Positions 33,360-58,319 of a DNA stretch of 64,000 bases are shown one piece after another (within the stretch, counting starts at the first letter, position 1; every line of letters begins with the position of its first letter). Made by a program: the position numbers and the translations under genes. Below the pieces are notes generated by a model. It saw only the letters and a program-made list of their open reading frames with translations. It was not told the DNA's origin and did no database searches. The stretch comes from Micromonospora sp. NBC_01796. Its GTDB lineage: Bacteria; Actinomycetota; Actinomycetes; Mycobacteriales; Micromonosporaceae. The stretch lies in NCBI RefSeq assembly GCF_035917455.1, contig NZ_CP109078.1, positions 5,068,001 to 5,132,000 on the forward strand, in the 5' to 3' direction.

Positions 33360-33380
33360 CTGTTGTCAGGGAGACGCCGC

Positions 33381-35036
<1,656 letters not shown>

Positions 35037-38123: not shown

Positions 38124-38315
38124 ATGACCGGAGCCACTCGGCGTCCGGTGCCCGAGGCGCCCAGCAGGTGCTGCCACTGCCCGCTCGAATTCCCCGACCT
38201 GGTCACGGGCCAGGTGGCGCCCATCCACCTTGAGGTGGGCGCGCAGGGGAAGACCTGTTTCGGCTCCGGTGCTCGGACCATCTCCCTGGCCCCAACGACC
38301 CCACGGAGGAGCTGA
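38124..38315 (+). CDS. Small cysteine-containing protein, last of the operon
   Basis: Protein of 63 residues starting 3 bp after the previous stop. It has a RCCHCPLEFPDL segment and a later TCFGSG, with His residues between, so it could bind a metal. The C-terminus is Ser/Thr/Pro-rich. I recognise no family, and it might be a fortuitous frame, but tight spacing supports it. Confidence 0.55.
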   Translation: MTGATRRPVPEAPSRCCHCPLEFPDLVTGQVAPIHLEVGAQGKTCFGSGARTISLAPTTPRRS

Positions 38316-38346
38316 CGGAGCTAGGTCTCGCTTATTCCTATTATCC

Positions 38347-38400
38347 GGTATAGAGGCAATGGTGCCCGTTATACCCTCGGTGAGTCATACGGGGGGTATG
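38347..38400 (+). promoter_or_regulatory. Cluster of GTATA/TATAC inverted sites
   Basis: The 148-bp gap before the giant gene is AT-rich for this genome and contains GGTATA (38347), TATACC (38370) and CATAC-N5-GTATG (38386-38400). These repeated, inverted half-sites make a promoter/operator region likely, but I cannot assign -10/-35 boxes with confidence. Confidence 0.4.
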
Positions 38401-38463
38401 TGTGGAAACGCGACTTTCGCTCGGTTTGGTGATCGGGGCCAGTACCGAAGCCGCGGAGACGCT

Positions 38464-41400
38464 GTGAACAGCAGAAGGCTGGCAGCACGGCGGAGGATCG
38501 GTGCCGGGGTTGTCGCCGTGCTGCTCGCGACACTGGCGGTCGTCCTGCCAGCGACCGTGGCGTCGGCGGTCGGCTCGACCCTGTTCGATCAGCCGTTCCA
38601 CAACAATTCGGCGAACGGTCTCGGCGCCGTCATCCTGCCGGCCCTACCGGCCGGCGGGACGGGGACGAACGTCGCCTGCCTGACCGCTTCGGGTAATCCC
38701 GGTACGGGTGGGTTGTACAGCTGCACGGGAACGACCGACCCGCTCGGCAGCGGCAAGCTGCGTCTCACCGATACCACCATCAACAAGATCGGTGGCGTGT
38801 TCGGCGCGGCGAGCGTCCCCACCTCGATGGGTCTGGACGTCACGTTCAACCTCTACCAGTGGGGCGGTGGCAACGCGGACGGGATGTCGCTCGTCCTCGC
38901 GGCGGTCGACCCCACCGGCGGGACCGCGCCCGCGACCCTCGGGCAGGTCGGTGGCGGGCTCGGCTACACCAGCACCAGAGCGTTGAACGGCCTGGCCAAC
39001 GGCTACCTGGGCATCGGCTTCGACGTCTTCGGGAACTACAGCACTCCGACGTACCAGGGGACTGGCTGCGTCGATCCGCCGTTCATCAGCGCGACCAAGA
39101 CCGCGGGCCAGGTGGTGGTTCGCGGGCCGGGGCGCGGAACGGTCGGCTACTGCGGGCTGAACAGCACCGCCACGAACAGTTCCTCCCCGGTGATTCCGTT
39201 GCGTGCGGCCACCCGGGCCGCCTCGGTCGTTCCGGTCGAAGTGGTGATCAATCCGACGGCCAGTTCGTTCACCACCGCCTCTGGCCTGGTCGTCGCTGCC
39301 GGTACCTACCTGGTGAGGTTCACGCCCGTCGGTGGGGCCCCACGTTCCCTGACAGGCCCGCTGCCCGCGGTGGCCGCCGGCCTGTACCCGTCGGCGACGT
39401 GGTTGAACAGCAGCGGGATACCACGGCAGCTCGCCTTCGGTTGGGTGGGTTCCACCGGTTCGGTGGTGGACAACCACGAGGTCGACAACACCAAGGTGGT
39501 CACCTTCACCCCGGTGCCGGACCTGAACGTGTCGCAGACGAGCTACACCGGCCCGACGCCGCAACCCGGTGACCCGGTGAACTACACGGTGGTCGCCGGG
39601 GTCGATGTCGGCGCCGACGAGACCGCCCCGATCTCGGTGACCGAGACCTTGCCGACCGGCGTGGTACCGGTGGGCGCGTTCGGCACGGGCTGGGTCTGCG
39701 CGGCCCCGGTCGGACAGAAGATCACGTGTACCAACAGCAACGCCCCGTTTGCCAACGGATCCACCCTGTCGCCGGTCAGCATTGTCGGCATCGTGACCGG
39801 AACGGGCGTCACACCGACCCTGATCCAGACCGGGTCGACCGCCGCCGCCTCGTCCATCGACGCCAACCCCGGCCTCGCGTTGACGACGACCGCGGGTACG
39901 GTGCCGGCCACCCCGAGCGGGATCACCGTCACGCCGGCCACCAGCACGATCGCCGGTGGCATCCCCGTCACGGTCGGCGGCACCAACATCGCCGGGGCCA
40001 CCGCCATCGAGATCGGCACCACGGCCGAGCAACAGGCAGGCACGCCGGTCACGCTGCTGCCCTGCCAGTCCGGCCCGGCGGCCGGATGCTTCACCGTGAA
40101 CGGCGACGGGACACTCGCGATCTCGTCCATGCCGGCCCGGACCACCGCCGCCACGGTGGGCATCACCGTGGTCACCAGGGGCGTCGCCGCCGCCGCGAGT
40201 TACGTCTACACCGACCGGCCGGGCACCCCGGCCGCCCCGACCGCGACCGCCGGCCTGGGCAGCGCCACCGTCAACTGGGTCGCGCCGGCGAGCAACGGCA
40301 GCCCGATCACCAGCTACATCGTCACCCCGATCCGCAACGGGGTGGCCCAGACCCCGATCACGTACGACGCCTCCACCACCAGCCGGGTGCTCACCGGGCT
40401 GACCGTCGGCGCGACGTACACCTTCACGGTCACGGCGGTGAACGCGATCGGCACCGGTCTGCCCAGCCCGGCGTCGGTCGGGGTGGTGCCGTTCAGCCTG
40501 CCCGGAGCGCCGACGATCACGGCCGCGAGCGCCGGGGACTCGTCCGCGACGTTGACCTGGACCGCACCCGGCACCGGAGGAAGCCCGATCACCTCGTACG
40601 TGGTCACGCCGTACATCGGCAACGTCGCGCAGACCACGCAGACGTTCGCCGGGGCGGCCACCACCCAGACAGTGACCGGGTTGACACCGGGTACGGCGTA
40701 CACCTTCACCGTCACGGCGACGAACGCCGGCGGCGCGGGTCCGCCCTCGGCCCGGTCCGCGGCGGTGACGCCGAACTTCTCACCGAGCCTGTCCAATCCG
40801 CCGCCGCCGACCGGTGAGGTCGGTGTGGCGTACAGCGTGCCGCTCACCGTCACCGCCGGTACGGCACCGTACGTCTGGTCGGTCAGCGCGGGTTCACTGC
40901 CGCCCGGGGTGACCCTGAACGCCTCCACCGGCCTGCTCTCCGGCACCCCGACCGCCGCCGGCAGCTTCCCCTTCACCGTCCAGGTGACCGACGCCAGCAA
41001 CCAGTCCGCCACCCAGGCGTTCACCGTGGTCATCGCACCGCAGCCGACGTTGACCTTCCCCGCACCGCCGCAGGGCCAGGTCGGCATCGCCTACAGCGTG
41101 CCGTTCACGGTCAGTGGTGGTACGGCCCCGTTCACCTGGTCGATCCCGGCGGGTAGCCTGCCGCCCGGCCTCACCCTCAACACCGCCACCGGTCTGCTCT
41201 CCGGCACGCCGACCCTGGGCGGCAACTACTCCTTCACCGTCCGGGTGGTGGACGCGTTCGCGCAGGTAGCCAACCGTACGGTCGCGCTCGGCATCACCGC
41301 CTCGCCCACCCTGACGTTCCCGCCGCCGCCACCGGGCCAGGTCGGCGTGCCGTACAGCGACCAGTTGACCGTCAACGGTGGCACGGCCCCGTTCACCTGG

Positions 41401-44400
41401 TCGGTCTCGGCGGGCAGTCTGCCGCCGGGCCTCACCCTCAACACCGGCACCGGTCTGCTCTCGGGCACGCCGACCACCGTCGGCAGCTACCCCTACACGG
41501 TGCAGGTGGTCGACGCCGCCGGGCAGCAGGCGACCCAGGCGGTCACCCACGTGATCGCGGCGGGCCCGCTGATCGTGTCGAAAACCGCCAATGTCAACGC
41601 CGTCGCCTCCGGCGGAACCGTCAACTACTCCATCACCGTGACCAACACCGGCTCGATCGCCTTCACCGGCGTCAGCGTGACCGACCCGCTCGGTGGGGTG
41701 CTGGACGACGCCACCTACAACGCGGACGCGACCGCCACCTCGGGCACGGTGTCGTTCGTCAACCCGACCCTCACCTGGACCGGTGACCTGGCCGCAGGTG
41801 CGGCCGTCACCATCACCTACTCGGTCACCGTGGCCAACCCGTCCGCCGGTGACCTGAGACTGACCAACACGGTGACCTCCGGGACGCTCGGGACCAACTG
41901 CGCCGCCGGCAGTGTCGACGCCCGGTGCACCGCCAGCGTCCCGGTGGCCGTGCTGACCATCGTGAAGACCGCGGACATGGCGACCGCGACACCCGGGGAC
42001 GTCGTGCACTACACCGTCACCGTGACCAATGCCGGCCAGGCCACCTACGCGAGTGCCGGGTTCACCGACGCGCTGGTTGCGGTGTTGGACGACGCGACGT
42101 ACAACGCCGACGCGGTGGCGACGGTCGGCGCGGTCGGGTTCACCTCGTCGAACCTGACCTGGACCGGTGTGCTCGCGGTCGGCGCGAGCGCCACCATCAC
42201 CTACTCGGTGACGGTGCGCAGCCCGGACCCGGGCGACAAGGTCATGACGAACACGGTGACCTCCGCGACCCTGGGCAGCAACTGCCCGTCCGGGGGCAGC
42301 GACGCCCGCTGTACGGCGACGGTCACCGTGCTGGTACCGGGCCTGGTGCTGACCAACACCCCGAGTACGACGACCACCACGCCCGGATCGACCGTCGGCT
42401 ACACCGTGGTCATCAGCAACACCGGGCAGACGCCGTACACGGGGATCAGCGTCACCGACTCCCTGGCGGGGCTGCTCGGCCGGGCGACGTACAACGGTGA
42501 CGCGACCGCCACCAGCGGCACGCTCGGGTACGTCAGCCCGAACCTGACCTGGACCGGCAACCTCGCGGTCGGCGCCTCGGTGACCATCACGTTCACCGCG
42601 ACCGTCACCGCCGCCACCACCGGCCAGTCGGTGCTGACCACCGTGCTCTCGTCGACGGCCGTCGGCAACAACTGTGCCGCCGGCAGCATCGACGCCCGGT
42701 GCACCGCGACGGTCACCGTCCTCATCCCCGGCCTGACCCTGCTCAAGACCGCGAGTACGCCGACCGCGACGCCGGGAACGGTGGTGGCGTACCGGATCGA
42801 GGTGACCAACACCGGCCAGAGTGCCTACCTGGGGGCGACCTTAACCGATTCGCTCTCCGGGGTGCTCGACGACGCCTCCTACGACGCCAACGCCGCCGCC
42901 ACCGCCGGAGTGGTGAGCTACACCGCCCCGACCCTGTCCTGGACCGGCGACCTCGCGGTGGGCGCGACCGCCGTTATCACGTACTCGGTCACGGTCTCCG
43001 TTCCCGATCTGGGCGACCGGACGCTGACCAACCGGGTGGTCTCACCGACGGCGGGGGCCAACTGCGCCGGGGACAGCACCGATCCGCGCTGCGTGGCGGT
43101 CGTCGCCGTGCTGCTGCCCGGACTGACCCTGACCAACACGCCGAGCGCGGCGACCGCCACTCCCGGCGACACGGTCGGTTACACCATCACGATCGCGAAC
43201 ACGGGCCAGTCCGCCTACTCCGCGATCAGCGTGGCCGATGACCTGACCGCCGTGCTCGACGACGCCGTCTACAACGCGGACGCCACCGCCAGCACCGGCA
43301 CGGTCACGCTCAGCGGCTCCGTGCTGACCTGGACCGGTTCGCTCGCTGTCGGGGTGACCGCCACCGTGCAGTTCTCGGTCACGGTGCGCGCCCCCGACTC
43401 CGGCAACCGGGCGATGGTCTCGACGCTCACCTCGACCGCCGCTGGCAACAACTGCCCGTCGGGCGGCACCGATCCGAGATGTACGGCCAGTGTCACGGTG
43501 CTCATCCCCGGCCTTGAGGTGGTCAAGACCTCCGACGTGGCCACGGCGACACCGGGTGGCGTGGTGTCGTACACGATCACGGTGACGAACACCGGCGAGA
43601 CCGCGTACGTGGGTGCCAGCGTGACGGACTCGCTGGCGAACCCGCTCAACGACGCCACGTACAACGGTGACGCGACCGCGTCCACCGGCACCGTGTCCTA
43701 CACCGCCCCCACCCTGAGCTGGCTGGGCAACCTGGCGGTCGGCGCCTCGGCGTCGATCACGTACTCGATGACGATCCTGAACCCCGATCCGGGTGACAAG
43801 ATCCTGTCCAACACGGCCGTCTCCACCACCCCCGGCAGCAACTGCCCGGTCGCGGGCACCGACCCACGTTGCACCGCCACCGTGCTGGTGGAGGTGCCGG
43901 CGTTGACGATCACCACGACGGCCGACGTGGCCAGCACCGCGCCCGGCTCGGTGGTCGGCTACACCGTCACGATCACCAACTCGGGCCAGACGGCGTACCC
44001 GACGCTGACCGTCACCAACGCGTTGGCCGGGGTCCTCGACGACGCGGTCTACAACAACGACGCCTCGGCCTCCGCCGGCACGGTCGGTTTCACCAGCCCC
44101 AACCTGACCTGGACCGGAAGCCTGACCCCGGGTGCTTCGGCGACCATCGCCTACTCCGTCACGGTGGCGAATCCGGACACCGGCGACCTTGTCCTGAACA
44201 GCCGGGTCGCCTCGGCGGCCGTCGGCAGCTCCTGCCCGGTCGGCAACACCATTCCCGCGTGCGCGGTGAGCGTGCCGGTCGCCCGGCTGCTGATCGTCAC
44301 CACGACCGACGTGGCCACCATCACGCCGGGAGGCGTGATCAGGGTCGACGCCACCTTCACCAACACCGGCCAGGTGCCCTACACCGGGATCAGGGTCAGC

Positions 44401-47400
44401 GCCGACTTCTCCGACTTCATCGACGACGTCCTCCCCACCGGTGACCAGACAGCCTCCTCCGGCACCCTCATCGCCGGCTCCGGCGGCGCGGTCTGGACCG
44501 GCGACATCCCGGTAGGGGAGACGATCACGCTGACCGGCACCGCCACCGTGCTCGATCCGGACCCGGGCAACCACGTGATCAGGGGTAGCTGGTCGTCGGC
44601 CGCGCCGGGCAACAACTGCCCGGCGGGAGGCAGCGACCCGCGTTGTGCGTTCAGCGTGGCCGTGCTCATACCGGGGCTCGGCATCACCAAGACTGCGGAC
44701 AGTGCGACCGCCGTACCGGGCGCGGCTGTCGGCTACACCCTGACGGTGACGAACACGGGTACGGCGCCGTACACCGCGATCAGCGTCACCGATCCGCTGA
44801 CCAGCGTGCTGGATGACGCGACGTACAACGGCGACGCGAGCGCCAGCGCGGGTGTGGTGTCGTACGCGGCACCGACGCTGACCTGGACCGGCGACGTCCC
44901 GGTCGGTGGGGCCGTGACCATCGCCTACTCGGTCACCGTGCGGTCGCCCGATCCCGGCAACAAGATCATGGTGAACACCGTCAACTCCACCGCCGCCGGC
45001 AGCTCCTGTTCCGCGGCCGGCCAGGCGGCCGGTTGCACCGCGACCGTCCTGGTGCTCACACCCGCGCTGACCACGGTGAAGTCCGTCAACGCCGTGGCGG
45101 CCACGCCGGGCAACACCCTGACCTACACCGTGTCGATCACCAACTCGGGGCAGATCGCCTACACCGCCATCAGCGTGGTCGACGACCTGACCGACGTGCT
45201 CGACGACGCGGTCTACAACGGCGACGCGGGCGCCACCGGCGGTTCGATGTCATACGCGGCACCGGTGCTGACCTGGACCGGCGACCTGGCCGTCGGGGTC
45301 ACCGTCACCGTCACCTACACGGTGACGATCGACAACCCCGATCCCGGCGACCAGAGCATGGTCAACTCGATCAGCTCGGGCGCGCCCGGAGCCAACTGCC
45401 CAGCGCTCGCGACCGACGCCCGGTGCACGGTCACCGTCGCGGTGGTCCCGTCGACCGAACTCAGCTTCATCAAGACCGCCGACGTGACCTCCACGACCGC
45501 CGGATCGGTGGTGACGTACACGATCGTCGTCGCGAACTCGGGCGCGTCGCCCTACCTTGGCGCCGACTTCACCGATTCGCTGACCGACGTGCTCGACAAC
45601 GCCGACTACAACAACGACGCGGTGGCGACGGGGAGCGGGACCGTCGACTACGACGAACCAGTGCTCTCCTGGAACGGCGACGTGCCGGCGAACGGGTCCA
45701 TCACCGTCACCTACTCCGTGACGGTGCTCGCCCCCGGCGGCGACAACAGCATGAGCAACACCCTGGTCTCGGCCGCGGAGGTCAGCAACTGCACCGAGGG
45801 CAGCGTCGACCCCCGGTGTACGACGGTGGTGACGGTCTCGGAGTTGACCATCGTGAACACCGCCGACGTGGCCACCACCACGCTGGGTGGCACGGTCACC
45901 TTCACCGGGGTCATCAGCAACACCGGTGGCACCCCGTTCTTCGGCGTCACCGTCTCGTTCGACCGTGCGGACCTGCTCGACGACGCCATCCTCACCAGTG
46001 ACGCGGTCTCCTCGGGAACCCTCGTGGTCACGCCGACCACGCTGGAATGGACCGGCGACATTCCGGTGGGCGACGAGGTCACGATCGAGAGAAACTTCCT
46101 GGTACGGAATCCCGATCCGGGCGACAAGGTCATGACGAGCGTGGTCAGGTCGGCGATCCCGGGCAACAACTGCCCGTCCGACGGGACCGACCCACGGTGC
46201 ACGGCCAGCGTGGCGGTACTGCTCCCCGGCCTGAGCATCGCCAAGACGGCCAACGTGCCCGTCACCACCCCCGGTGGGACGGTCGGTTACACCATCAGGA
46301 TCACCAACACCGGCACCGCCCCCTACTTCGGTGCGGTGGTCACCGACAACATGACCGGTGCACTCGACGACGCCACCTACGGCGGCGCGACCACCGACAC
46401 GGGAAGCCTCTCGTACGTCGCACCGACGTTGACCTGGACCGGGGACCTGCCGGTGGGTGCGATCGCCGTCATCACGTACTCGATGACGGTGAACAATCCG
46501 GACCTGGGCGACAAGGTCATGGTGAACGTGGCGTCGTCCACCGAGGTCGGTAGCGACTGCCTTCCGGCGAGCGCCAACCCCGCCTGCACGGTGCTGCGCG
46601 CCGTGCTCACGCCCGCCCTGACCATCACCACCGCCGCCGGCACGGCCAGTACGACACCCGGTGCCGTGGTCGGCTACACCACCACCATCGCCAACACCGG
46701 CCAGACCGCCCAGTCCGGCGTCACGGTGACCAACGCGCTGGCCGGAGTGCTGGACGACGCGTCGTACAACGGCGACGTCGTGGCGTCGGCCGGCACCGCC
46801 GTCTTCACCAGCCCGAACCTGGTCTGGTCCGGCACCCTCGCCCCGGGCGCGACCGCGACCGTCACCTACTCCGTCACGGTCGCCGTCCCGGATGCCGGCA
46901 ACCGCATACTGACCGGCACGGTCACCTCCGCGGCGGTCGGCAGCACCTGCCCGGCGGGCAACACCAACCCCGCCTGTACGAGCACGGTGACGGTTTCCGT
47001 CCTGACCATCGTGAACAGCCCGGGGGCTCCCACCGCCGTTCCGGGCGGAACGGTCGTGTTCACCACGACGGTGACCAACACCGGGCAGACGCCGTACACC
47101 GGGATCAGCCTCACCACCGACTTCGCCGGCTCGGTCGACGACGCGTCGTACAACGGTGACGCCGCCGCTTCGACCGGCACCATCGCCCTGGTGCCGCCCA
47201 CGTCGATCCGGTGGACCGGCGACCTCGCCCCCGGTGCGAGCGCCACCATCACCCGCTCGTTCACCGTGCACGACCCCGATCCGGGCAACCGGAGCATGAC
47301 CTCGGTGGTCACCTCGACCGCGCCCGGCAACAACTGCCCGTCGGATGGCACCGACCCGGCCTGCACCGCCACGGTCACGATCCTGGTCCCGGCCCTGAGC

Positions 47401-50109
47401 GTGCTGAAGACCGCGAGCAGCGCCACCACCGTCCCCGGCGGGATCGTCGGCTACACGATCACGGTCACCAACACCGGTGAGACGCCGTACCCGGCCGCGA
47501 CGATCAGCGACAGCCTGGCCGGGCTGCTCGACGATGCGAGCTACAACACCGACGCCACCGCCAGCGTCGGTACCGTCGCCTACACCGCCCCGAACATCAC
47601 CTGGACGGGGGCGCTGGCGATCGCCGGGACCGCGACGATCACGTACACCGTCACCGCCGACGATCCGCAGACCGGCGGCCGGATCCTCACCAACACCGTC
47701 AGCTCCACCAGCTCGGGCAGCAACTGCCCGCCCGGTGGAACCGATCCGGCCTGTGCCGTGACCGTCCAGGTGCTGCTGCCGGCCCTGAGCATCGCGAAAC
47801 ACGCGAGCGCCGGCACCACCACGCCGGGCGCCACGGTCGGCTACACCATCACCGTCACCAACAGCGGGCAGACCCCGTACACCGGGGCCACCCTGGCCGA
47901 CGACCTCGCCGGTGTGCTCGACGACGCCGTCTACCAGGGCGACGCCGCCGCTTCGGGCGGGGCGGTCTCGTACGACGAACCGGTGTTGACCTGGATCGGT
48001 GATCTCGCCGTGGGCGCCGCCGTCGTGGTGAGTTACTCGGTCGTGGTGCGCACCCCGGCCACCGGTGACCGGAGCATGGGCAACGCGGTCACCTCCACCA
48101 CCGTCGGCAGCAACTGCCCGGCCGGCGGCACCGACCCGGCCTGCGCCGCGACCGTCGCGGTGCTCATCCCGGCGCTCGCGATCACCAACGTCGCCGACGT
48201 CGCCACCGCGACCCCCGGTGGCGTCATCCGGTTCACCGCCACCTTCACCAACGTCGGTCCGACCGCCTACACCGGCATCAGGATCGTGACCAACGCGTCG
48301 AACGTCTTCGACGACGCGCGACCCAACGGCGACCAGGTCGCCAGTTCCGGCACCCTCACCGTGGTCGGCGCCGCCGTGACCTGGATCGGCGACATCCCGA
48401 TCGACGGCGTCGTGGTCGTCACCGGGACCGTCACCGTCAACAGTCCGGACACCGGCAACCGGACCATCGCCAGCACCATCACCACCGACGCGCCGGGCAC
48501 CAACTGCCCGACCGCCGCACCGGGGCCCGGCTGCACCGTCACCGTGTCCGTCCTCCTGCCCGGCCTGGCGATCCAGAAGACCGCCGACAACCCCACGACC
48601 ACACCGGGCGGGACCGTCACGTACACGATCTCCGCCACGAACACCGGTGAGACCGCGTACCTCGGCACCACGATCACCGACTCGCTCGCCGGTCTGGTGG
48701 CCGACGCCGCGTACAACGGCGACGCGGTCGCCTCCAGCGGGGCGCTGTCGTACAACGCCCCGGTCCTGACCTGGACCGGCGACATACCGATCGGCACCGC
48801 CGTCACCATCACCTACACCGTGACGGTCGGTGGTTCCCAGACCAGCGGGCGGATCCTCACCAACACCGTCACCTCCGCCGCGCAGGCCAACAACTGCCCG
48901 ACCGGCAGTCTCGCCCTGGCCTGTACCGCCAACGTCGCGATCCTGATTCCCGGCCTGAGCATCACCAAGGCGGCGGACACCGCGACCGTCACCGCCGGTG
49001 GCACGGTCACCTACACGATCAGGGTGACCAACACCGGGCAGTCGCCGTACGTGGGCGCGACGTTCGCCGACCCGCTCACCGGGGTGCTCGACGACGCCGA
49101 CTACAACTCCGACGCCGCGACCACACTCGGCGAGGTCTCCTACGACGAGCCGGTGCTGAGCTGGTCGGGGGACCTACCGGTGGGCGGCGCGGCCCTGATC
49201 ACCTACTCGGTCACCGTGAACTTCCCGGACGACGGCGACGAGATCCTGGTCAACACCGTCACCTCCGACACCCCCGGCGCCAACTGCCCGGGTGGTCCGG
49301 CCTGCACGGCGACGGTTGCCGTTCTCGTCCCGGCGCTGACCATCACCAAGACCGCCGCCAGCAGTACGGTGGTCGCCGGTGGGACGCTCCAGTACACCGT
49401 GCTGATCACCAACAGCGGGGAGTCGCCCTACCGCGGCGCGACGGTCACCGACTCCCTCGTCGGAGTGCTCGACGACGCCGGCTACGGCAACGACGCCACC
49501 GCCACCACCGGCGCGCTCACGTACACCACCGCGGCACTGTCCTGGACCGGTGACCTGCCGGTCGGTGCCACCGCCGCGATCACGTACACCGTGCTGGTCA
49601 ACCAGCCGACGACCGGCGACGGGCAACTCGTCAACACCGTCACCTCCACCACCCTCGGCAACAACTGTCCGGAGGACGGGACCGACCCCCTGTGTGTCAC
49701 CGACACCACCGTGGTGGAGCAGAGCATCACCCTCACCGACCTGCCCGCCACGGTCGCCATCGCGGGCCTCTCCGGCGACGTCGCGAGGAAGGACGACGCG
49801 GTCAGCATGACGGTCATCACGAACAGTCCCACCGGCTACCTGGTGACGGTCCAGGCCCTGGCGCCCGAGCTCACGCCGGCGCTTCCCGCCAACCCGGACA
49901 CCATCCCGATCGAAAACCTCCGGGTACGCGAGAACGGCGCCGGGCCCTTTCTACCGCTGTCCGACGAGACCGCGCTCGTCCTGTACCGACAGTCGACACC
50001 ATCGGCCCCCGGCGGGGACGCGATCAGCAACGACTACGAGGTTCTCATCCCGGAGGTCGTGGCCGATGAGTACTCCGTGACGTTGGAGTACATAGCGATC
50101 ACCCAGTAG
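38464..50109 (+). CDS. Giant secreted surface protein with 21 DUF11-type repeats
   Basis: Exported protein of 3,881 residues, probably an adhesin or stalk. Signal peptide at 1-36 (VVAVLLATLAVVLPATVASA). Residues about 37-325 resemble a bacterial L-type lectin (DGMSLVLAAVD, YLGIGFDVFGNYS). A DUF11-like unit and a TIG-like unit (about 345-585) lead to two fibronectin III domains (about 586-770) and three Ig-like He_PIG units (about 773-1033, each with SLPPGLTLNTxTGLLSGTPT). From about 1036 to 3750 there are 21 repeats of about 129 residues. Each begins L-x-I-x-K-T-A-D and carries VTNTGQ, LDDATYN and TWTGDL, and each ends with a Cys pair (usually C-x8-C). The last 130 residues form a different beta domain, WxL-like in appearance. 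No LPXTG and no membrane helix are found. GTG start with GGAG nearby; the next gene follows after 18 bp. Confidence 0.93.
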   Translation: MNSRRLAARRRIGAGVVAVLLATLAVVLPATVASAVGSTLFDQPFHNNSANGLGAVILPALPAGGTGTNVACLTASGNPGTGGLYSCTGTTDPLGSGKLRLTDTTINKIGGVFGAASVPTSMGLDVTFNLYQWGGGNADGMSLVLAAVDPTGGTAPATLGQVGGGLGYTSTRALNGLANGYLGIGFDVFGNYSTPTYQGTGCVDPPFISATKTAGQVVVRGPGRGTVGYCGLNSTATNSSSPVIPLRAATRAASVVPVEVVINPTASSFTTASGLVVAAGTYLVRFTPVGGAPRSLTGPLPAVAAGLYPSATWLNSSGIPRQLAFGWVGSTGSVVDNHEVDNTKVVTFTPVPDLNVSQTSYTGPTPQPGDPVNYTVVAGVDVGADETAPISVTETLPTGVVPVGAFGTGWVCAAPVGQKITCTNSNAPFANGSTLSPVSIVGIVTGTGVTPTLIQTGSTAAASSIDANPGLALTTTAGTVPATPSGITVTPATSTIAGGIPVTVGGTNIAGATAIEIGTTAEQQAGTPVTLLPCQSGPAAGCFTVNGDGTLAISSMPARTTAATVGITVVTRGVAAAASYVYTDRPGTPAAPTATAGLGSATVNWVAPASNGSPITSYIVTPIRNGVAQTPITYDASTTSRVLTGLTVGATYTFTVTAVNAIGTGLPSPASVGVVPFSLPGAPTITAASAGDSSATLTWTAPGTGGSPITSYVVTPYIGNVAQTTQTFAGAATTQTVTGLTPGTAYTFTVTATNAGGAGPPSARSAAVTPNFSPSLSNPPPPTGEVGVAYSVPLTVTAGTAPYVWSVSAGSLPPGVTLNASTGLLSGTPTAAGSFPFTVQVTDASNQSATQAFTVVIAPQPTLTFPAPPQGQVGIAYSVPFTVSGGTAPFTWSIPAGSLPPGLTLNTATGLLSGTPTLGGNYSFTVRVVDAFAQVANRTVALGITASPTLTFPPPPPGQVGVPYSDQLTVNGGTAPFTWSVSAGSLPPGLTLNTGTGLLSGTPTTVGSYPYTVQVVDAAGQQATQAVTHVIAAGPLIVSKTANVNAVASGGTVNYSITVTNTGSIAFTGVSVTDPLGGVLDDATYNADATATSGTVSFVNPTLTWTGDLAAGAAVTITYSVTVANPSAGDLRLTNTVTSGTLGTNCAAGSVDARCTASVPVAVLTIVKTADMATATPGDVVHYTVTVTNAGQATYASAGFTDALVAVLDDATYNADAVATVGAVGFTSSNLTWTGVLAVGASATITYSVTVRSPDPGDKVMTNTVTSATLGSNCPSGGSDARCTATVTVLVPGLVLTNTPSTTTTTPGSTVGYTVVISNTGQTPYTGISVTDSLAGLLGRATYNGDATATSGTLGYVSPNLTWTGNLAVGASVTITFTATVTAATTGQSVLTTVLSSTAVGNNCAAGSIDARCTATVTVLIPGLTLLKTASTPTATPGTVVAYRIEVTNTGQSAYLGATLTDSLSGVLDDASYDANAAATAGVVSYTAPTLSWTGDLAVGATAVITYSVTVSVPDLGDRTLTNRVVSPTAGANCAGDSTDPRCVAVVAVLLPGLTLTNTPSAATATPGDTVGYTITIANTGQSAYSAISVADDLTAVLDDAVYNADATASTGTVTLSGSVLTWTGSLAVGVTATVQFSVTVRAPDSGNRAMVSTLTSTAAGNNCPSGGTDPRCTASVTVLIPGLEVVKTSDVATATPGGVVSYTITVTNTGETAYVGASVTDSLANPLNDATYNGDATASTGTVSYTAPTLSWLGNLAVGASASITYSMTILNPDPGDKILSNTAVSTTPGSNCPVAGTDPRCTATVLVEVPALTITTTADVASTAPGSVVGYTVTITNSGQTAYPTLTVTNALAGVLDDAVYNNDASASAGTVGFTSPNLTWTGSLTPGASATIAYSVTVANPDTGDLVLNSRVASAAVGSSCPVGNTIPACAVSVPVARLLIVTTTDVATITPGGVIRVDATFTNTGQVPYTGIRVSADFSDFIDDVLPTGDQTASSGTLIAGSGGAVWTGDIPVGETITLTGTATVLDPDPGNHVIRGSWSSAAPGNNCPAGGSDPRCAFSVAVLIPGLGITKTADSATAVPGAAVGYTLTVTNTGTAPYTAISVTDPLTSVLDDATYNGDASASAGVVSYAAPTLTWTGDVPVGGAVTIAYSVTVRSPDPGNKIMVNTVNSTAAGSSCSAAGQAAGCTATVLVLTPALTTVKSVNAVAATPGNTLTYTVSITNSGQIAYTAISVVDDLTDVLDDAVYNGDAGATGGSMSYAAPVLTWTGDLAVGVTVTVTYTVTIDNPDPGDQSMVNSISSGAPGANCPALATDARCTVTVAVVPSTELSFIKTADVTSTTAGSVVTYTIVVANSGASPYLGADFTDSLTDVLDNADYNNDAVATGSGTVDYDEPVLSWNGDVPANGSITVTYSVTVLAPGGDNSMSNTLVSAAEVSNCTEGSVDPRCTTVVTVSELTIVNTADVATTTLGGTVTFTGVISNTGGTPFFGVTVSFDRADLLDDAILTSDAVSSGTLVVTPTTLEWTGDIPVGDEVTIERNFLVRNPDPGDKVMTSVVRSAIPGNNCPSDGTDPRCTASVAVLLPGLSIAKTANVPVTTPGGTVGYTIRITNTGTAPYFGAVVTDNMTGALDDATYGGATTDTGSLSYVAPTLTWTGDLPVGAIAVITYSMTVNNPDLGDKVMVNVASSTEVGSDCLPASANPACTVLRAVLTPALTITTAAGTASTTPGAVVGYTTTIANTGQTAQSGVTVTNALAGVLDDASYNGDVVASAGTAVFTSPNLVWSGTLAPGATATVTYSVTVAVPDAGNRILTGTVTSAAVGSTCPAGNTNPACTSTVTVSVLTIVNSPGAPTAVPGGTVVFTTTVTNTGQTPYTGISLTTDFAGSVDDASYNGDAAASTGTIALVPPTSIRWTGDLAPGASATITRSFTVHDPDPGNRSMTSVVTSTAPGNNCPSDGTDPACTATVTILVPALSVLKTASSATTVPGGIVGYTITVTNTGETPYPAATISDSLAGLLDDASYNTDATASVGTVAYTAPNITWTGALAIAGTATITYTVTADDPQTGGRILTNTVSSTSSGSNCPPGGTDPACAVTVQVLLPALSIAKHASAGTTTPGATVGYTITVTNSGQTPYTGATLADDLAGVLDDAVYQGDAAASGGAVSYDEPVLTWIGDLAVGAAVVVSYSVVVRTPATGDRSMGNAVTSTTVGSNCPAGGTDPACAATVAVLIPALAITNVADVATATPGGVIRFTATFTNVGPTAYTGIRIVTNASNVFDDARPNGDQVASSGTLTVVGAAVTWIGDIPIDGVVVVTGTVTVNSPDTGNRTIASTITTDAPGTNCPTAAPGPGCTVTVSVLLPGLAIQKTADNPTTTPGGTVTYTISATNTGETAYLGTTITDSLAGLVADAAYNGDAVASSGALSYNAPVLTWTGDIPIGTAVTITYTVTVGGSQTSGRILTNTVTSAAQANNCPTGSLALACTANVAILIPGLSITKAADTATVTAGGTVTYTIRVTNTGQSPYVGATFADPLTGVLDDADYNSDAATTLGEVSYDEPVLSWSGDLPVGGAALITYSVTVNFPDDGDEILVNTVTSDTPGANCPGGPACTATVAVLVPALTITKTAASSTVVAGGTLQYTVLITNSGESPYRGATVTDSLVGVLDDAGYGNDATATTGALTYTTAALSWTGDLPVGATAAITYTVLVNQPTTGDGQLVNTVTSTTLGNNCPEDGTDPLCVTDTTVVEQSITLTDLPATVAIAGLSGDVARKDDAVSMTVITNSPTGYLVTVQALAPELTPALPANPDTIPIENLRVRENGAGPFLPLSDETALVLYRQSTPSAPGGDAISNDYEVLIPEVVADEYSVTLEYIAITQ
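41569..49725 (+). repeat. Array of 21 DUF11-type coding repeats (~388 bp period)
   Basis: In-frame direct repeats within the giant gene. Each unit encodes about 129 residues and contains a Cys pair. In repeats 1-19 and 21 it is C-x8-C; repeat 20 is shortened to C-x5-C. Repeats 8, 12, 15 and 18 form a divergent subtype with N-terminal 'VNT/TTT' and I/V-rich strands. Repeats 7 and 14 resemble each other closely and directly precede subtype repeats 8 and 15, implying duplication of multi-repeat blocks. Confidence 0.9.
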
Positions 50110-50127
50110 GAAGCAGCTAGGAGCATC

Positions 50128-50796
50128 ATGTCCAACCTCCCCGCCCTTGCCGTAGCCGCCGTGGTGTCGATGATCACGATGTCGGTGGCCGTGCCGGCCG
50201 CACCTCGGACGGGCGTGGCCCCGACGCCGACGGTCGACGCGGAGCAGCCGTTGCTGAGCATCGCGATCGACAACGGACGGACCAGTGCCGCCGCCGGCGA
50301 CGAGCTGACGTACAAGATCACGATCCGCAATCTCGGTACGACGGAGGCGAAGGGACTCGAGATCTCGCAGAGCCTTCCCGCGGGTCTGACGTTCGCCGCC
50401 GCCGACAACGGTGGCACCGCCGATGCCGATCGGGTCGTCTGGCCGACCGATTTGAAGACCGGTCAGGAGGCGACGTTCACCACCGTCGCCCGGCTCGGGC
50501 AGACGCCCGACGAACTGCTCCGCCTCGCCACGGTCGCATGCGCCACCGCCGACGGGGCCGAGAAGCCGCTCGTCTGTGCGACCCACTCGGACCTGCTGCC
50601 CGCCGGTGCCGTGGCCACCCGTACCGAGGAGAAGGCCGTCACCCCCTGGATGCGGTACGGCGCAGCCGCCGCGGCACTGGCGGTTCTTGCACTGGTCACG
50701 ACCGTTCTCCTGCGTCGACGTCGTCGACGGCTCCTGGCGGCACGACCCGAGGCGGGAACGGGTAGGCACCTGGCCCGCGCGAGCGTCGCGGACTGA
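50128..50796 (+). CDS. DUF11-domain membrane protein of the surface operon
   Basis: Protein of 222 residues: signal peptide (ALAVAAVVSMITMSVAVPAA), one DUF11 domain at about 45-150 (SIAIDNGRTSAAAGDELTYK, ISQSLPAGLTF, VVWPTDLKTG), then a membrane helix (YGAAAAALAVLALVTTVLL) and an Arg-rich cytoplasmic tail. It lies 18 bp after the giant gene with AGGAG before the ATG, so both are in one operon. A single-copy domain related to the giant protein's repeats but anchored in the membrane suggests a docking partner for the giant protein (inference). Confidence 0.88.
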   Translation: MSNLPALAVAAVVSMITMSVAVPAAPRTGVAPTPTVDAEQPLLSIAIDNGRTSAAAGDELTYKITIRNLGTTEAKGLEISQSLPAGLTFAAADNGGTADADRVVWPTDLKTGQEATFTTVARLGQTPDELLRLATVACATADGAEKPLVCATHSDLLPAGAVATRTEEKAVTPWMRYGAAAAALAVLALVTTVLLRRRRRRLLAARPEAGTGRHLARASVAD

Positions 50797-51037
50797 TCCG
50801 ATGGCCGTTGCGACGCTGACCGGGCCGACCACCGCGCACCGTACCCGCCACCGCGAGACCGAGGTATACCGAGGTCGGTACGGCAATGGACAGCTCACCT
50901 GCCAGGACGGTGATGGTGGCGTCAACGTCCTGGGCGGCCCCCGCCCGCATCGGACACCCGAGGACCAGGAGGCAGGCGATGGCCGCCGAGAGTGGAGCCC
51001 ACCTCACATTTCCACCCGACTTCCTCGTTCGGACCAT
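50780..51037 (-). pseudogene. Probable decayed WxL-like secreted protein
   Basis: On the minus strand, an ATG at 51037 (or GTG soon after) opens a signal-peptide-like sequence (LSAAIACLLVLGCPMRAGAA). It is followed by DATITVLAGELSIAVPTS, which resembles the start of actinobacterial WxL-like domains. At about 50847-50853 (GGTGGTCGG) the likeness jumps to another frame (VGPVSVATAIGSV) and then ends against the convergent gene's 3' end. It is truncated and frameshifted, hence a remnant; identification rests on a short match. Confidence 0.38.
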
Positions 51038-51210
51038 TGTCGTGAATAGAGAGCATCCTGTGGTCTGTTTGGACAGTGGACAGTGCTTTCGGTCGGGACG
51101 GAAACGATGGCTCGGGTGCAGAGAGTTCGATCGACCAGGCGTTTTCCCGCGAGTTATGCGGCTAGGATGAATGGCGGTTACCACGCGACTAAGGATTCGA
51201 ACGAGAAAAT

Positions 51211-51915
51211 ATGTGGATCAATCTCATTCGAGCGACGCTCCCGGTCGTGTTCGTGATGACGCCGACCGCGCCCGCGGTCGCCCGGCAGCCCGCGCAGCCG
51301 GACTTCGCGCTCAATGTGAGCCCGAGCCGGGTGCTCGTCCCGGCCGACCAGACGGCGCGACCCCGACAGTTCACCGTGACCAACCAAGGCCGTATCCCGG
51401 CTGATGTCGTGACCCGGATGGAGAGCTTCACGGCGGGGGAAGACGGCGATCTCCACTTCCGGTCGGACGCACCCCACTCGGCCGCCGGATGGGTCCGGGT
51501 CCAGCCGGAACGCTTCCGTCTGGACGGTGGGACGGCGGGACAGGTGAGCCTGCACATCGCCGTACCGGCCAACGCCGAACCCGGTGAGCACCAGGTCGCC
51601 GTGATCTTCTCGGTGTCCGCTCCGGACGGTCGTACCGGCATCGGCGTGAATCGCAGCGTGGGTGTCCCCGTGTACGTCACGGTCGCGGGGGAGGCCGTCG
51701 ACCCGGTCGAGGCGACCACGGCGACCGGCGGCATCCTGCCGTTGCGGCTGATCGGACTGGTGCTGCTGCCCGTTCTGACCCTGCTGCTGGGCGGGCTGCT
51801 GGTCCGGCGTCGGCTGGTCCGGCGTCGGCTCGGCCGCCTTGGGCCACCCGGTCCCGGGCTCCCTGTGCCCGTGGGGAATATCGATGGCGACGGGCGGCGT
51901 TCCGACCTAACGTGA
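51211..51915 (+). CDS. DUF916/WxL-partner-like membrane protein
   Basis: Protein of 234 residues: N-terminal signal (LIRATLPVVFVMTPTAPAVA), a beta-sandwich of the kind found in WxL-interacting proteins (FALNVSPSRVLVPADQ, QFTVTNQGRIPADV, GWVRVQPERFRLDGG, VSLHIAVPANAEPGEHQVAVIF), then a membrane helix (LIGLVLLPVLTLLLGGLLV) and a basic tail. WxL partners bind peptidoglycan and WxL proteins in Firmicutes. Here it follows the surface operon by 414 bp, so it may anchor the giant protein through its WxL-like end (inference). Confidence 0.85.
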   Translation: MWINLIRATLPVVFVMTPTAPAVARQPAQPDFALNVSPSRVLVPADQTARPRQFTVTNQGRIPADVVTRMESFTAGEDGDLHFRSDAPHSAAGWVRVQPERFRLDGGTAGQVSLHIAVPANAEPGEHQVAVIFSVSAPDGRTGIGVNRSVGVPVYVTVAGEAVDPVEATTATGGILPLRLIGLVLLPVLTLLLGGLLVRRRLVRRRLGRLGPPGPGLPVPVGNIDGDGRRSDLT

Positions 51916-52012
51916 TCGCCATGTTCGCCACCGCAGCCGTCGTGCGGCCCGCAGGTCTACACCTGCCGGCTGCCGCCGACGCCTGCCCGCGGCTGGCTGA
52001 TACGCGAAGCTG

Positions 52013-52050
52013 ACCCTCCTCCCGCACCAGCGGAACCCACGGAGGAGGGT
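52013..52050 (+). promoter_or_regulatory. Hairpin upstream of the EF-Tu gene
   Basis: Perfect 10-bp arms ACCCTCCTCC (52013-52022) and GGAGGAGGGT (52041-52050) lie 136 bp before the start, with a smaller hairpin (GCAGGT/ACCTGC) at 51951-51966. They may terminate the upstream transcript or regulate the EF-Tu leader. Confidence 0.4.
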
Positions 52051-52185
52051 GGCCCGGTCTCCCCGGCGTCGCCCCGAGTGACGCCGCGACGCGCGGTTCT
52101 GGCGCGGTTTCTCTTTCGCGGATTGGCATCCGCCCGCGTACCTCCGTCCGCCATTCCAGCTCCACCCTTCGCGGAGAAAGCCATC

Positions 52186-53373
52186 ATGGCCAAGACCCAG
52201 TTCGTCCGTACCAAGCCGCACCTGAACATCGGCACGATGGGACACGTCGACCACGGCAAGACGACGTTGACCGCCGCCATCACGAAGGTGCTCGCCGACC
52301 GGGACCCGGCGGTCAACCGGTTCGTCTCGTTCGACGGCATCGACCGGGCACCGGAGGAGGTCGCCCGGGGCATCACCATCACCATCGCCCACGTCGAGTA
52401 CGAGACCGCGACCCGGCACTACGCCCACGTCGACATGCCCGGCCACGCCGACTACGTGAAAAACATGATCACGGGGGCGGCGCAGGTGGACGCGGCGATC
52501 CTGGTCGTCTCGGCGCTCGACGGTGCGATGCCGCAGACCCGCGAGCACGTACTGCTGGCCCGGCGGGTCGGGGTGCCGTACCTGGTGGTGGCCATGAACA
52601 AGGCCGACGCGGTGACCGACCCCGAGCTGCTCGACCTGGTCGAGTTGGAGGTGCGGGAACTGCTGACCGAGTACGGCTTCCCCGGCGACGAGGTCCCGGT
52701 GGTACGGGTCTCGGCGCTGCGTGCCCTGGCCGGTGACCCGCGCTGGGTCGCCTCCATCGGTGAGCTGCTCGACGAGGTCGACCGTTACGTCCCGGTGCCG
52801 CCGAGGGAGCTGGGGGAGCCGTTCCTGATGCCGATCGAGAACGTACTCACCATCTCCGGCCGGGGGACCGTGGTCACCGGTGCGGTCGAGCGTGGCACGT
52901 TGCGCGCCGGGGACCAGGTGGAGGTGGTCGGGCTCGGTCCGACCCTGGCCACCGTGGCGACCGGGCTGGAGACCTTCGGTCGTACGTTGGTCACCGCCGA
53001 GGCCGGGGACAACGCGGCCGTACTGCTGCGCGGGGTCAAGCGGGACCAGGTGCAGCGCGGTCAGGTGCTGGCCGCGCCGGGCAGCGTCACGCCGCACCGG
53101 GCCTTCACGGCGCAACTGCACGCGCTGACCACCGCCGAGGGTGGCCGGCACACGCCGTTCCACGCCAACTACCGGCCGCAGTTCTACTTCCGTACCACCG
53201 ACGTGGTCGGTGCGGTCGACCTGGGCGAGTTGGCGCAGGTCGCGCCGGGCGACACCGTGGAGCTGACGGTACGGCTCGGCCAGCCGATCGCGATGGACGT
53301 CGGGCTCGGGTTCGCGGTCCGGGAGGGCGGCCGTACGGTCGCCGCCGGCACGGTGACCGCCCTGCTCGACTGA
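52186..53373 (+). CDS. tuf3: Divergent elongation factor Tu (tuf3-like)
   Basis: EF-Tu paralogue of 395 residues delivering aminoacyl-tRNA to the ribosome. All GTPase motifs are present: GHVDHGKTT (G1), RGITI (G2), DMPGHADY (G3; canonical DCPGH) and NKAD (G4). Domains 2 and 3 are complete, with EGGRHTPF and [11 protein letters not shown]. Standard EF-Tu in other bacteria has Gln124 (E. coli numbering) in GRQVG; here the sequence is ARRVG, so the residue is Arg (R127 here), a substitution known from kirromycin-resistant EF-Tu. Divergence and a gene location away from rpsL/fusA match tuf3 of Streptomyces. Confidence 0.95.
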
Positions 53374-53529
53374 CCCGGGCGGTAGACGCGGCGAACGGGT
53401 GCCCGGTGAACGCGGCGAACGGGTCCGGTGCTGTCGAACGTACGACGGCACCGGACCCCGACGCCGCGCGGCCCGACGGACGCGGGGGTGCCAGGCGCCC
53501 GGCGGTCGCTATGCACCAGACTGCCGGGC

Positions 53530-55065
53530 GTGCAGCCGATAGCCCTCCGCCCCGATCGGTACACCCTGATGGCGGCCATCCTGGGCGGGCTCGGGCTCGC
53601 CTGGCGGATCTGGCTGACGCTGGTCGAATCACCGCCCACGAACAGCGACGAGGCGACCATGGGACTGGCCGCGCTGCACGTCAGCCAGGGGCGCGGGCTG
53701 CCGGTCTTCTTCTACGGCCAGCACTACATGGGCACCATCGAGGCGTACCTGGCCGCGCCGTTGGTGGGACTGTTCGGCCCGTCGGTGACCGCGCTGCGGG
53801 TGCCCACCCTGCTGCTGTACGCGCTGTTCCTGGTCCTGATGTTCCTGCTCGTACGGCGGCTGTTCTCGGCCGGACTCGCGGTCCTGACCACCGCCCTGCT
53901 CGCCTTCGGCGCGGACCGGGTGGTGAAGAACCAGTTGATCGCCGGGGGCGGTTATCCGGAGACCGGACCGATGGTGGCCGGGCTGCTCCTGCTCACGTAC
54001 GCGTTGCTCGCCGCCGACCGGCCACGTCGACGAGTTTTCGCCGGTTGGGGACTCCTGGCCGGGCTGATCGTGTGGAACCACTGGCTGCCGGCGCCGTACC
54101 TGCTGGGCGCGCTGATCCTGCTGGTCGCCGGCCGGGTCCTCACCCGCCGGGCGGCCGTCGTGACGGCGGGCGGGTTCCTGCTCGGCGCGCTGCCCCTGCT
54201 GGTCGACAACGTCCTCGCCGGACCGCGCCACAACTCGATCGCCGTGTTCCTGAGCCTCAACGGCGCCGGTACGGACCCCTCCCTCTGGGACCGGATCGTC
54301 GGCGGCGCCTGGCTGGGGCTGCCGATGGGGATGGGGCTGTGCGCGCCGAGCCGGTGCGACGGCTGGTCGCTGTGGTGGGGGCCTGTTGTCGTCGCCCTGC
54401 TGGCCACGGCACTGGTCCTGTCCGTACGCGCGCTACGCCGTCCCGCCGTCGAGCCGGAACCCGGCTCCGCCGCCGATCCCGAGCGGGCCCGCCAGCAGCT
54501 CCGGCTGGTCCTCGCCGCCGCCGGACTGGTGAGCATCCTCACCTACGTACGCAGTCCGGCCGCCGCCGACTCGTCGATCGAGAGCGCCCGGTACCTGTCG
54601 ACCCTGGCCCTCTCGCTGCCCGTGGCCCTCTGGCCGCTGTGGCGGGTGGTCAGGTCCGGCACCGGCTGGGCGATCCCGGCGGCGGTACCGATCGCCGCGC
54701 TGGTCGCCACGATGCTCGCCGCGACGGTCAGCCTCACCGACGCGGTGCCGCAGTACCGGAGCATGCGGACCAGCCAGGCGGGGCTCGTCGCGGCACTCGA
54801 CCGGGCGGGGCTGACCTACGTGCACAGCGAGTACTGGACCTGCAACTGGATCACGTACCTCACCGGTGAGCGGATCACCTGCGGGGTGGTCGACGACCAG
54901 TTGGACCGGGGGTTCAACCGGTACCCCCGCTACTGGCGCCCCGAGGCACGGGCGGTCGTCGCTCCGGTCGGATCCGCGCTGGACACGGAACTCGCCCACC
55001 GGCCCGGATTCACCCCACAGACCGTCACCGGCTACCACATCTACACACCGATCACCCCTCCCTGA
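53530..55065 (+). CDS. Polytopic membrane glycosyltransferase-like protein
   Basis: Membrane protein of 511 residues with about ten hydrophobic helices and the DE motif of GT-C/ArnT-type transferases (SPPTNSDEATMGLAALH) in the first outer loop, then YGQHYMGTIEAYLAAP. These features suggest transfer of a sugar from a polyprenyl phosphate to a cell-envelope acceptor. The start is uncertain: GTG 53530 begins the protein shortly before the first helix; an open frame from 53428 and an ATG at 53569 are alternatives. It follows tuf3 on the same strand. A direct repeat lies in the intergenic region before it. Confidence 0.82.
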   Translation: MQPIALRPDRYTLMAAILGGLGLAWRIWLTLVESPPTNSDEATMGLAALHVSQGRGLPVFFYGQHYMGTIEAYLAAPLVGLFGPSVTALRVPTLLLYALFLVLMFLLVRRLFSAGLAVLTTALLAFGADRVVKNQLIAGGGYPETGPMVAGLLLLTYALLAADRPRRRVFAGWGLLAGLIVWNHWLPAPYLLGALILLVAGRVLTRRAAVVTAGGFLLGALPLLVDNVLAGPRHNSIAVFLSLNGAGTDPSLWDRIVGGAWLGLPMGMGLCAPSRCDGWSLWWGPVVVALLATALVLSVRALRRPAVEPEPGSAADPERARQQLRLVLAAAGLVSILTYVRSPAAADSSIESARYLSTLALSLPVALWPLWRVVRSGTGWAIPAAVPIAALVATMLAATVSLTDAVPQYRSMRTSQAGLVAALDRAGLTYVHSEYWTCNWITYLTGERITCGVVDDQLDRGFNRYPRYWRPEARAVVAPVGSALDTELAHRPGFTPQTVTGYHIYTPITPP

Positions 55066-55202
55066 TCTTGCGTGTGTGGTCGCCGGATGGTCGATGTGTC
55101 AGACTCGCCGCTTGGCGCGGTCGGTCGCTCGGCACTGTCGGCTCAAAACGCCGTCGGTGAACGGGTCCACCGTCGGTGAGGACGTCGAGGAGGGGGAACG
55201 CG

Positions 55203-55768: not shown

Positions 55769-58319
<2,551 letters not shown>

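Follow-up and report, generated by a model that had tools for sequence, protein, structure and literature searches.

Surface anchoring through WxL domains has been described mainly from the Lactobacillales and Bacillales; over 91% of 938 WxL sequences came from Firmicutes (PMC9772566), and the WxL proteins of PMC4449606 belong to honeybee lactobacilli. The domain is defined by two Trp-x-Leu motifs, the distal one of the form YXXX(L/I/V)TWXLXXXP (PMC5817068), and in clusters that also encode a WxL-interacting protein (WxLIP; DUF916-DUF3324-transmembrane helix) a hairpin of DUF916 has been proposed to complete the WxL sandwich (PMC10599100). The closest known design to the one reported here, in small, is that of Llp1 and Llp2 of Lactobacillus rhamnosus (679-688 aa; PMC5116675, PMC4990349), in which an N-terminal L-type lectin is combined with a C-terminal WxL-type domain and anchoring is thought to be non-covalent. 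The present analysis concerns a stretch of 64,000 nucleotides of Micromonospora sp. NBC_01796, hereafter the window (positions 5068001-5132000 of the 8.56-Mb single-contig genome; coordinates below are those of the window unless a locus or genome position is named). Three adjacent genes of the window encode a giant surface protein with a lectin-like head, a stalk of 21 repeats and a WxL-like C-terminal domain, followed by two membrane proteins, an architecture that is confirmed. With a probability of roughly 0.6, the third protein, a relative of WxLIP, anchors this putative adhesin non-covalently by holding its WxL-like foot.

The giant gene (38464..50109, + strand) is a single reading frame running from a GTG at 38464 to a stop at 50109 and encoding 3,881 residues, with homologous one-contig genes in six other loci. 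A hydrophobic segment at residues 10-41 forms a signal peptide-like N-terminus (38464..38571, + strand, limit approximate), and secretion of the protein is predicted from hydropathy alone. The hydropathy scan revealed no hydrophobic segment at the C-terminus; five internal segments exceeded the threshold, all within Ala/Val-rich repeats of the stalk. No LPXTG or LAXTG motif was found anywhere in the 3,881 residues, and sortase anchoring was rejected on the lack of such a motif and of a C-terminal transmembrane (TM) helix. These results agree with a preliminary description of this DNA in which a secreted protein of 3,881 residues was said to carry neither a membrane nor a sortase anchor.

The head (38572..39528, + strand, limits approximate) is 58-82% identical in eight homologs. 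Two orthologous heads matched the Pfam family Lectin_L-type_dom (PF18483) at 3.4e-8 and 2.6e-7, under its curated cut-off, and the head profile gave a weak match to a solved legume lectin (E 0.009); for the window's own head Pfam returned nothing at E 10. The comparisons support a lectin-like head, which may bind sugar, and in that form the lectin head of the preliminary description is upheld. A second L-type lectin-like stretch was observed on another contig of the Streptosporangium subroseum genome (L126; Lectin_L-type_dom, 9.1e-12, below cut-off). Beyond the head lie two fibronectin type III domains (40231..40758, + strand) and three putative immunoglobulin (Ig) domains of the He_PIG family (40783..41556, + strand), both with approximate limits. 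Pfam identified in the giant protein 2 fn3, 3 He_PIG, 21 DUF7927, 20 DUF11 and 16 DUF7507 stretches, the last three families falling on identical repeats, and NCBIfam added three stretches of an isopeptide-forming fimbrial domain.

The C-terminal domain (49714..50106, + strand, 130 aa) is located at the end of the protein, the position that WxL domains occupy in secreted proteins, secretion being judged here from hydropathy only. An alignment of the domain subfamily (A1, nine sequences) was compared with an alignment of 14 actinomycete WxL domains obtained with a Pfam WxL search (A4). The latter represents 14 of 20 WxL loci; L025 was omitted for a coordinate error and L023, L031, L034, L035 and L039 by choice as more divergent. 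A phylum-wide profile search with the domain gave matches in 4 of 396 genomes, namely its own, G382 (1.4e-24), G619 (1.4e-4) and G429, the last of which contains internal stop codons and was unused; in the class of G619, 18 of 149 genomes matched. Addition of the G382 and G619 sequences to A1 gave a probability of 48% against A4, and the widened alignment A6, to which nine distant relatives were added, gave a probability of 75% with a score of 37.7 over 116 columns. The best of 100 column-shuffles of A4 scored 23.2 and reversed A4 13.9, while A6 scored 14.7 against the stalk repeats, 17.3 against actinomycete WxLIP proteins (A2), 14.3 against the WxLIP-like subfamily of the module (A3) and 10.9 against its DUF11-containing membrane protein. 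Since the score of A6 with A4 was above all controls, it is read as remote homology to WxL. In eight of the nine distant rows the first motif contains Trp, as in SNTMWGLKV. The alignments and the profile-profile comparison suggest that the domain is a remote, Trp-less relative of WxL domains, an assignment that depends on members added by profile search.

Against solved structures, the alignments of the C-terminal domain and of WxL produced no more than weak and scattered matches (E 0.06 and above). The G382 domain showed a weak match to a pilin domain from the Candidate Phyla Radiation (E 0.085). No homolog of the domain was present at E 1e-3 in the plasmid and phage records searched, and its own genome contains no second strong match. 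The single Pfam WxL match of that genome is located elsewhere, at genome positions 7550272-7551145 (L098), beside a WxLIP_PGBD match. The ten neighbouring open reading frames (ORFs) scanned matched other Pfam families or none, and no second WxL-type protein was found among them.

The second gene encodes a membrane protein of 222 aa with a DUF11 domain (DUF11-TM; 50128..50796, + strand), the reading frame of which starts 18 bp past the stop of the giant gene at 50109, as previously described. The third gene (51211..51915, + strand) encodes a protein of 234 aa comprising the first, DUF916-like, domain of WxLIP and a TM helix. Each of the two proteins has a TM segment near the C-terminus; that of the third is strong and is its only one (residues 170-200), its N-terminal signal falling under the threshold used. 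By eye, the Lys at the isopeptide position is absent from nine rows of the DUF11-TM alignment, which makes a dock or assembly factor likelier than a unit of the stalk.

The window's WxLIP-like protein has no Pfam match above cut-off. An alignment of the module's WxLIP-like subfamily (A3, four sequences) was compared with A2, consisting of 16 actinomycete proteins that match Pfam WxLIP_PGBD and drawn from 20 loci, L050, L052, L058 and L059 being left out. The two could be aligned across the TM helix as well as both extracellular domains, with an hhalign probability of 99.3% (E 1.7e-20, score 145). As controls, A3 scored 18.6 with the stalk repeats and 32.3 (27%) with the DUF11-TM family, indicating that an Ig-like background exists in these comparisons but lies far below 145. 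A search of solved structures with the WxLIP-like alignment yielded nothing better than E 0.13. The profile homology supports assignment of the third gene to a remote WxLIP subclade.

Homologs of the giant gene were compared in nine loci: the window, Micromonospora arborensis, genome G186, Plantactinospora alkalitolerans, genome G058, Streptosporangium carneum, S. subroseum, Frankia nepalensis and Frankia EI5c. A DUF11-TM gene stands beside the giant gene in 9/9 loci, about 0.6 kb upstream in F. nepalensis and directly downstream elsewhere. A WxLIP-like gene occurs within approximately 4 kb in 8/9; three loci (the window, P. alkalitolerans and G058) have it downstream and four (M. arborensis, G186, S. 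carneum and EI5c) upstream, and in F. nepalensis it is found about 3 kb off on the opposite strand. A further WxLIP-like gene of P. alkalitolerans (L020:536-1546) precedes the giant gene by about 0.9 kb and fits the general WxLIP profile better than the module's subclade. These sequences indicate that gene order is free and that the partnership recurs. Of the three-gene module proposed earlier, the linkage was recovered in relatives as far as Streptosporangium and Frankia; the order is not fixed, with the WxLIP-like gene upstream in four loci and on the opposite strand in one.

Co-occurrence was also evident at the level of genomes. The C-terminal domain is present in 5 of 250 Micromonosporaceae genomes and, in a search of the window's genus, in 1 of 3. 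A3, searched against an equal number of family genomes, matched 65 at E 1e-10 or better. Only the five domain-bearing genomes matched the WxLIP subclade at E <= 3.7e-80, followed by a gap to the next at 1.6e-20. Four of these five supplied sequences to A3, so that only M. arborensis and the lack of such matches in the remaining 245 genomes are informative. In S. carneum and the two Frankia loci, which lie outside the search model, subclade members were found beside the giant gene at E 8e-80 to 1e-90. The distant G382 encodes a short protein, secreted as judged by eye, with little beyond the domain, directly followed by a two-domain WxLIP-like gene, and among remote relatives of the domain in the class of G619 a WxLIP-like ORF was found in 14 of 21 fetched loci. 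In a set of 41 genomes, own included, Pfam WxL matched 15 (6 over cut-off) and WxLIP_PGBD 18 (17 over cut-off); in every Micromonosporaceae genome with a WxL match (10/25), a WxLIP_PGBD match lies no more than 2 kb from at least one of them. WxL-type pairs are, by these profile matches, frequent in Micromonosporaceae, and the principle is not foreign to actinomycetes.

The stalk (41557..49713, + strand) is an array of DUF11/DUF7927 repeats, 21 in number and each some 130 aa long. Every repeat (21/21) holds one Cys pair, mostly CX8C. The Lys-Asp-Asn isopeptide triad, assigned to DUF11, DUF7507 and DUF7927 domains in PMC12617251, is complete in 13/21, and in these repeats an isopeptide bond could form. 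Lys and Asn are present together in these 13 and jointly missing from the remaining 8, a coincidence expected once in 203,490 under random placement, a figure to be read in light of the ancestry that the repeats share. Complete triads number 13/21 in M. arborensis, 12/21 in G186, 10/21 in P. alkalitolerans, 11/21 in G058, 10/16 and 1/5 on the two contigs of S. subroseum, and 4/7 in EI5c. In the S. carneum stalk (L127) Lys is kept in 11 of 21 repeats and the position of its partner Asn is mostly Gly; the six triad-less positions that S. carneum shares with the window are not significant (~0.06, hand count).

Arrays were compared across species and genera. Of the seven one-contig arrays, six comprise 21 repeats (the window, M. 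arborensis, G186, P. alkalitolerans, G058 and S. carneum); the S. subroseum array, 16 and 5 repeats on two unjoined contigs, and the incomplete EI5c array stand outside this count. In the four other Micromonosporaceae, 83/84 repeats find their best window partner at the identical position. Mean identity between the window and S. carneum was 53.4% in register, whereas displacement by 1 to 6 repeats in either direction gave no more than 49.9%, and the in-register value was reached by 0 of 5000 permutations, also after the first and last repeats were dropped. The comparisons indicate that the number and order of the repeats are old and that the cross-links are not constant across relatives.

The results can be combined in the following model. 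The giant protein would be exported and, outside the membrane, its Trp-less WxL-like domain would be captured by the WxLIP-like protein, the DUF916-like domain of which would be tethered by its TM helix. Capture would probably consist of the insertion of a β-strand of the partner into the WxL-like sandwich, an idea transferred by homology from the published WxL-WxLIP model (PMC10599100). The DUF11-TM protein would serve as a second membrane-bound dock or as an assembly factor. The stalk of 21 Ig-like repeats, all of them with a Cys pair and 13 with the triad, would hold the lectin-like head away from the cell; its length is presumably on the order of 100 nm, judging from rough domain sizes. 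A wider claim is more tentative, namely that a Trp-less WxL-like domain and a WxLIP-like protein define an undescribed actinobacterial class of anchor with a 21-repeat ruler of fixed length, conserved in repeat number and order from Micromonosporaceae to Streptosporangium, in which cross-links come and go and a lectin is presented at a set distance; it is possible, with odds that fall well short of even.

Several observations weigh against anchoring of a fixed-length stalk by a WxL-type pair. Both Trp-x-Leu motifs are absent from the window's domain, in which the corresponding positions read GYLV and YSVTLEYIAITQ; in A1, GY and TLEY or TLDY replace GW and TW of WxL, and either motif is found in 0/9 rows. 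The domain matches no Pfam family even at E 10, WxL (PF13731) included. It is not a WxL domain by definition, lacking both motifs and a Pfam match, and the WxL-like C-terminal domain of the preliminary description stands as remote profile homology (37.7 against 23.2 at most for shuffles) and not by motif or family match. The narrow alignment A1 gave a probability of 1.7% against A4, so that the link hinges on the additions from profile searches, one of them first found at E 1.4e-4, and 8 of the 14 WxL sequences used for comparison are below the Pfam cut-off. In the class of G382 just 1 of 66 genomes has the domain.

The partner and the stalk also provide such points. For the S. subroseum homolog, no WxLIP-like gene was found nearby, in about 11.7 kb on the head side and 6 kb on the tail side. 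Among the remote loci from the class of G619, 7 of 21 have no WxLIP-like ORF in the piece retrieved, four of them (L101, L113, L116 and L119) being truncated at contig ends; of the 14 with one, L112, L114 and L115 have a stop-to-stop ORF overlapping the domain but in a different frame. In the window copy of the WxLIP-like protein the second, DUF3324-like, domain is missing, and the order DUF916, DUF3324 and TM helix typical of WxLIP is therefore absent from this copy; the DUF916-like partner claimed in the preliminary description is upheld by the homology to WxLIP with that restriction. The second domain is also missing from M. arborensis (L018:9067-9765), whereas six of the eight aligned relatives have both (G186, P. 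alkalitolerans, S. carneum, the two Frankia and G382). Since G186 and M. arborensis are congeneric, one loss took place within Micromonospora. First domains alone numbered 47 among 1308 proteins of a WxLIP survey, the isolated domain occurring in only two clusters (PMC10599100). The F. nepalensis homolog (L128) has 15 repeats instead of 21. The triad is complete in just 2/21 repeats of S. carneum and 2/15 of F. nepalensis, and this rarity indicates that isopeptide locking is not a general feature. Individual S. carneum repeats best-match the window at their own position in 6/21 cases, and in 4/21 in the reverse direction. The five repeats on the second S. subroseum contig show no clear register 0 (reached by 135 of 5000 permutations), with shift -3 scoring higher on two repeats.

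The membrane proteins could have a role other than anchoring, acting as export or folding chaperones for a very long Thr-rich protein that is then released or held otherwise. Each is small and membrane-bound with one Ig-like extracellular domain, and the absence of a second domain from the window's WxLIP-like protein would suit such a function. Strand donation, as supposed here for capture, is also used by some chaperones. WxL proteins occur in the medium as well as on the cell, yet WxL domains are described as cell-wall binding (PMC5817068); this description, together with a C-terminal placement that suits an anchor, makes a chaperone function unlikely. The reported binding of WxL domains to peptidoglycan (PMC9772566, PMC5817068) is in turn consistent with direct attachment of the C-terminal domain to peptidoglycan or another wall polymer, the membrane partners being accessory. 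Attachment of this kind is considered less probable still, given that linkage to a WxLIP-like gene in 8/9 loci and next to distant relatives of the domain favours a protein partner over a wall ligand alone.

It could also be argued that anchoring falls mainly to the DUF11-TM protein, which might, for instance, pack against the end of the DUF11 stalk, considering that its gene is present in 9/9 loci, one above the WxLIP-like gene, and that a conserved Cys-containing stretch precedes its TM helix. WxLIP-like genes nevertheless accompany the domain in G382 and G619, where Pfam sees no DUF11 repeats in the domain-bearing protein, and a leading part for DUF11-TM is therefore regarded as quite improbable. 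Anchoring by the WxLIP-like protein is the explanation preferred here.

The three genes lie in an accessory block of 16.9 kb (38283..55178; limits from alignment ends, approximate) that neither sister genome has at the corresponding position. Sister G002 aligned up to 38282 and resumed at 55179 with 267 bp between, and sister G001 aligned on either side (35544 and 55317) with about 1.1 kb between. Besides the module the block contains an EF-Tu-like paralogue with all three EF-Tu Pfam domains (52078..53373, + strand) and a candidate multi-TM membrane glycosyltransferase resembling PMT_2 (53428..55065, + strand; Pfam E 2.9e-5, just below cut-off). The alignments suggest that the block was gained or lost as a unit. 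The EF-Tu-like and PMT_2-like genes were considered as parts of the module and rejected, as neither gave a tblastn match at 1e-5 in the fetched loci of relatives. The PMT_2-like protein, the gene for which was not found in those loci, could be a candidate for glycosylation of the Thr-rich stalk. With blastn, the window flanks matched none of the loci fetched from other genera. A GH18 family protein with CBM2 is encoded upstream of the block (33363-35036), and a Ser/Thr kinase with PASTA domains downstream (59442-61415). The window also encodes a class-II 3-deoxy-D-arabino-heptulosonate 7-phosphate synthase (55847-57292), with a second genomic match at G000:C1:5535612-5536923 (79% DNA identity).

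If the proposed anchoring is correct, a giant actinomycete adhesin uses the WxL principle after loss of the motif that names the family, and a set of unannotated C-terminal domains becomes readable. The preliminary description considered the assembly undescribed in actinomycetes. No description of WxL/DUF916 anchoring in actinomycetes was found in the open-licence literature searched, beyond a passing mention of WxLIP, in line with that view; the neighbouring WxL and WxLIP genes in 10/25 Micromonosporaceae genomes narrow it to the assembly and not the principle.

Compared with known systems, the module probably works like a WxL/WxLIP adhesin, yet by the defining motif it is no member. It shares the lectin-to-foot layout of Llp1 and Llp2; these are Firmicutes proteins with a Pfam WxL domain, for which no long stalk is described, whereas the protein here has 3,881 aa, 21 repeats and a Trp-less domain. 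As in the WxL clusters of PMC10599100, a WxL-type secreted protein is encoded beside a DUF916-like membrane protein. Unlike in those clusters, there is an additional DUF11-TM protein, no second WxL-type protein was found, the WxLIP-like protein of the window is reduced to the first domain and TM helix, and both Trp-x-Leu motifs are missing. The stalk has the tandem DUF11-type domains with triad that characterise CLIPPER (DUF11, DUF7507) and DUF7927 fibrillar adhesins (PMC12617251), with which it shares Pfam families and an array placed between head and anchor. It differs from those adhesins in that the triad is limited to 13/21 repeats (2/21 in S. carneum), each repeat has a Cys pair and copy number is kept between genera. 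In Periscope Proteins (PMC8201768), too, tandem folded repeats set the distance of a ligand-binding head; their copy number varies even between similar strains, and the most extreme variation accompanies the highest repeat identity. The diverged repeats of the window (mean DNA identity 73.4%, maximum 79.3%) set it apart from Periscope Proteins and are consistent with that statement. Repeat number does not vary in the Periscope manner, 21 copies recurring in 6/7 one-contig arrays and in four genera, the window's included. The array kept between genera is the opposite of the fast-varying Periscope stalks and makes selection on stalk length directly testable.

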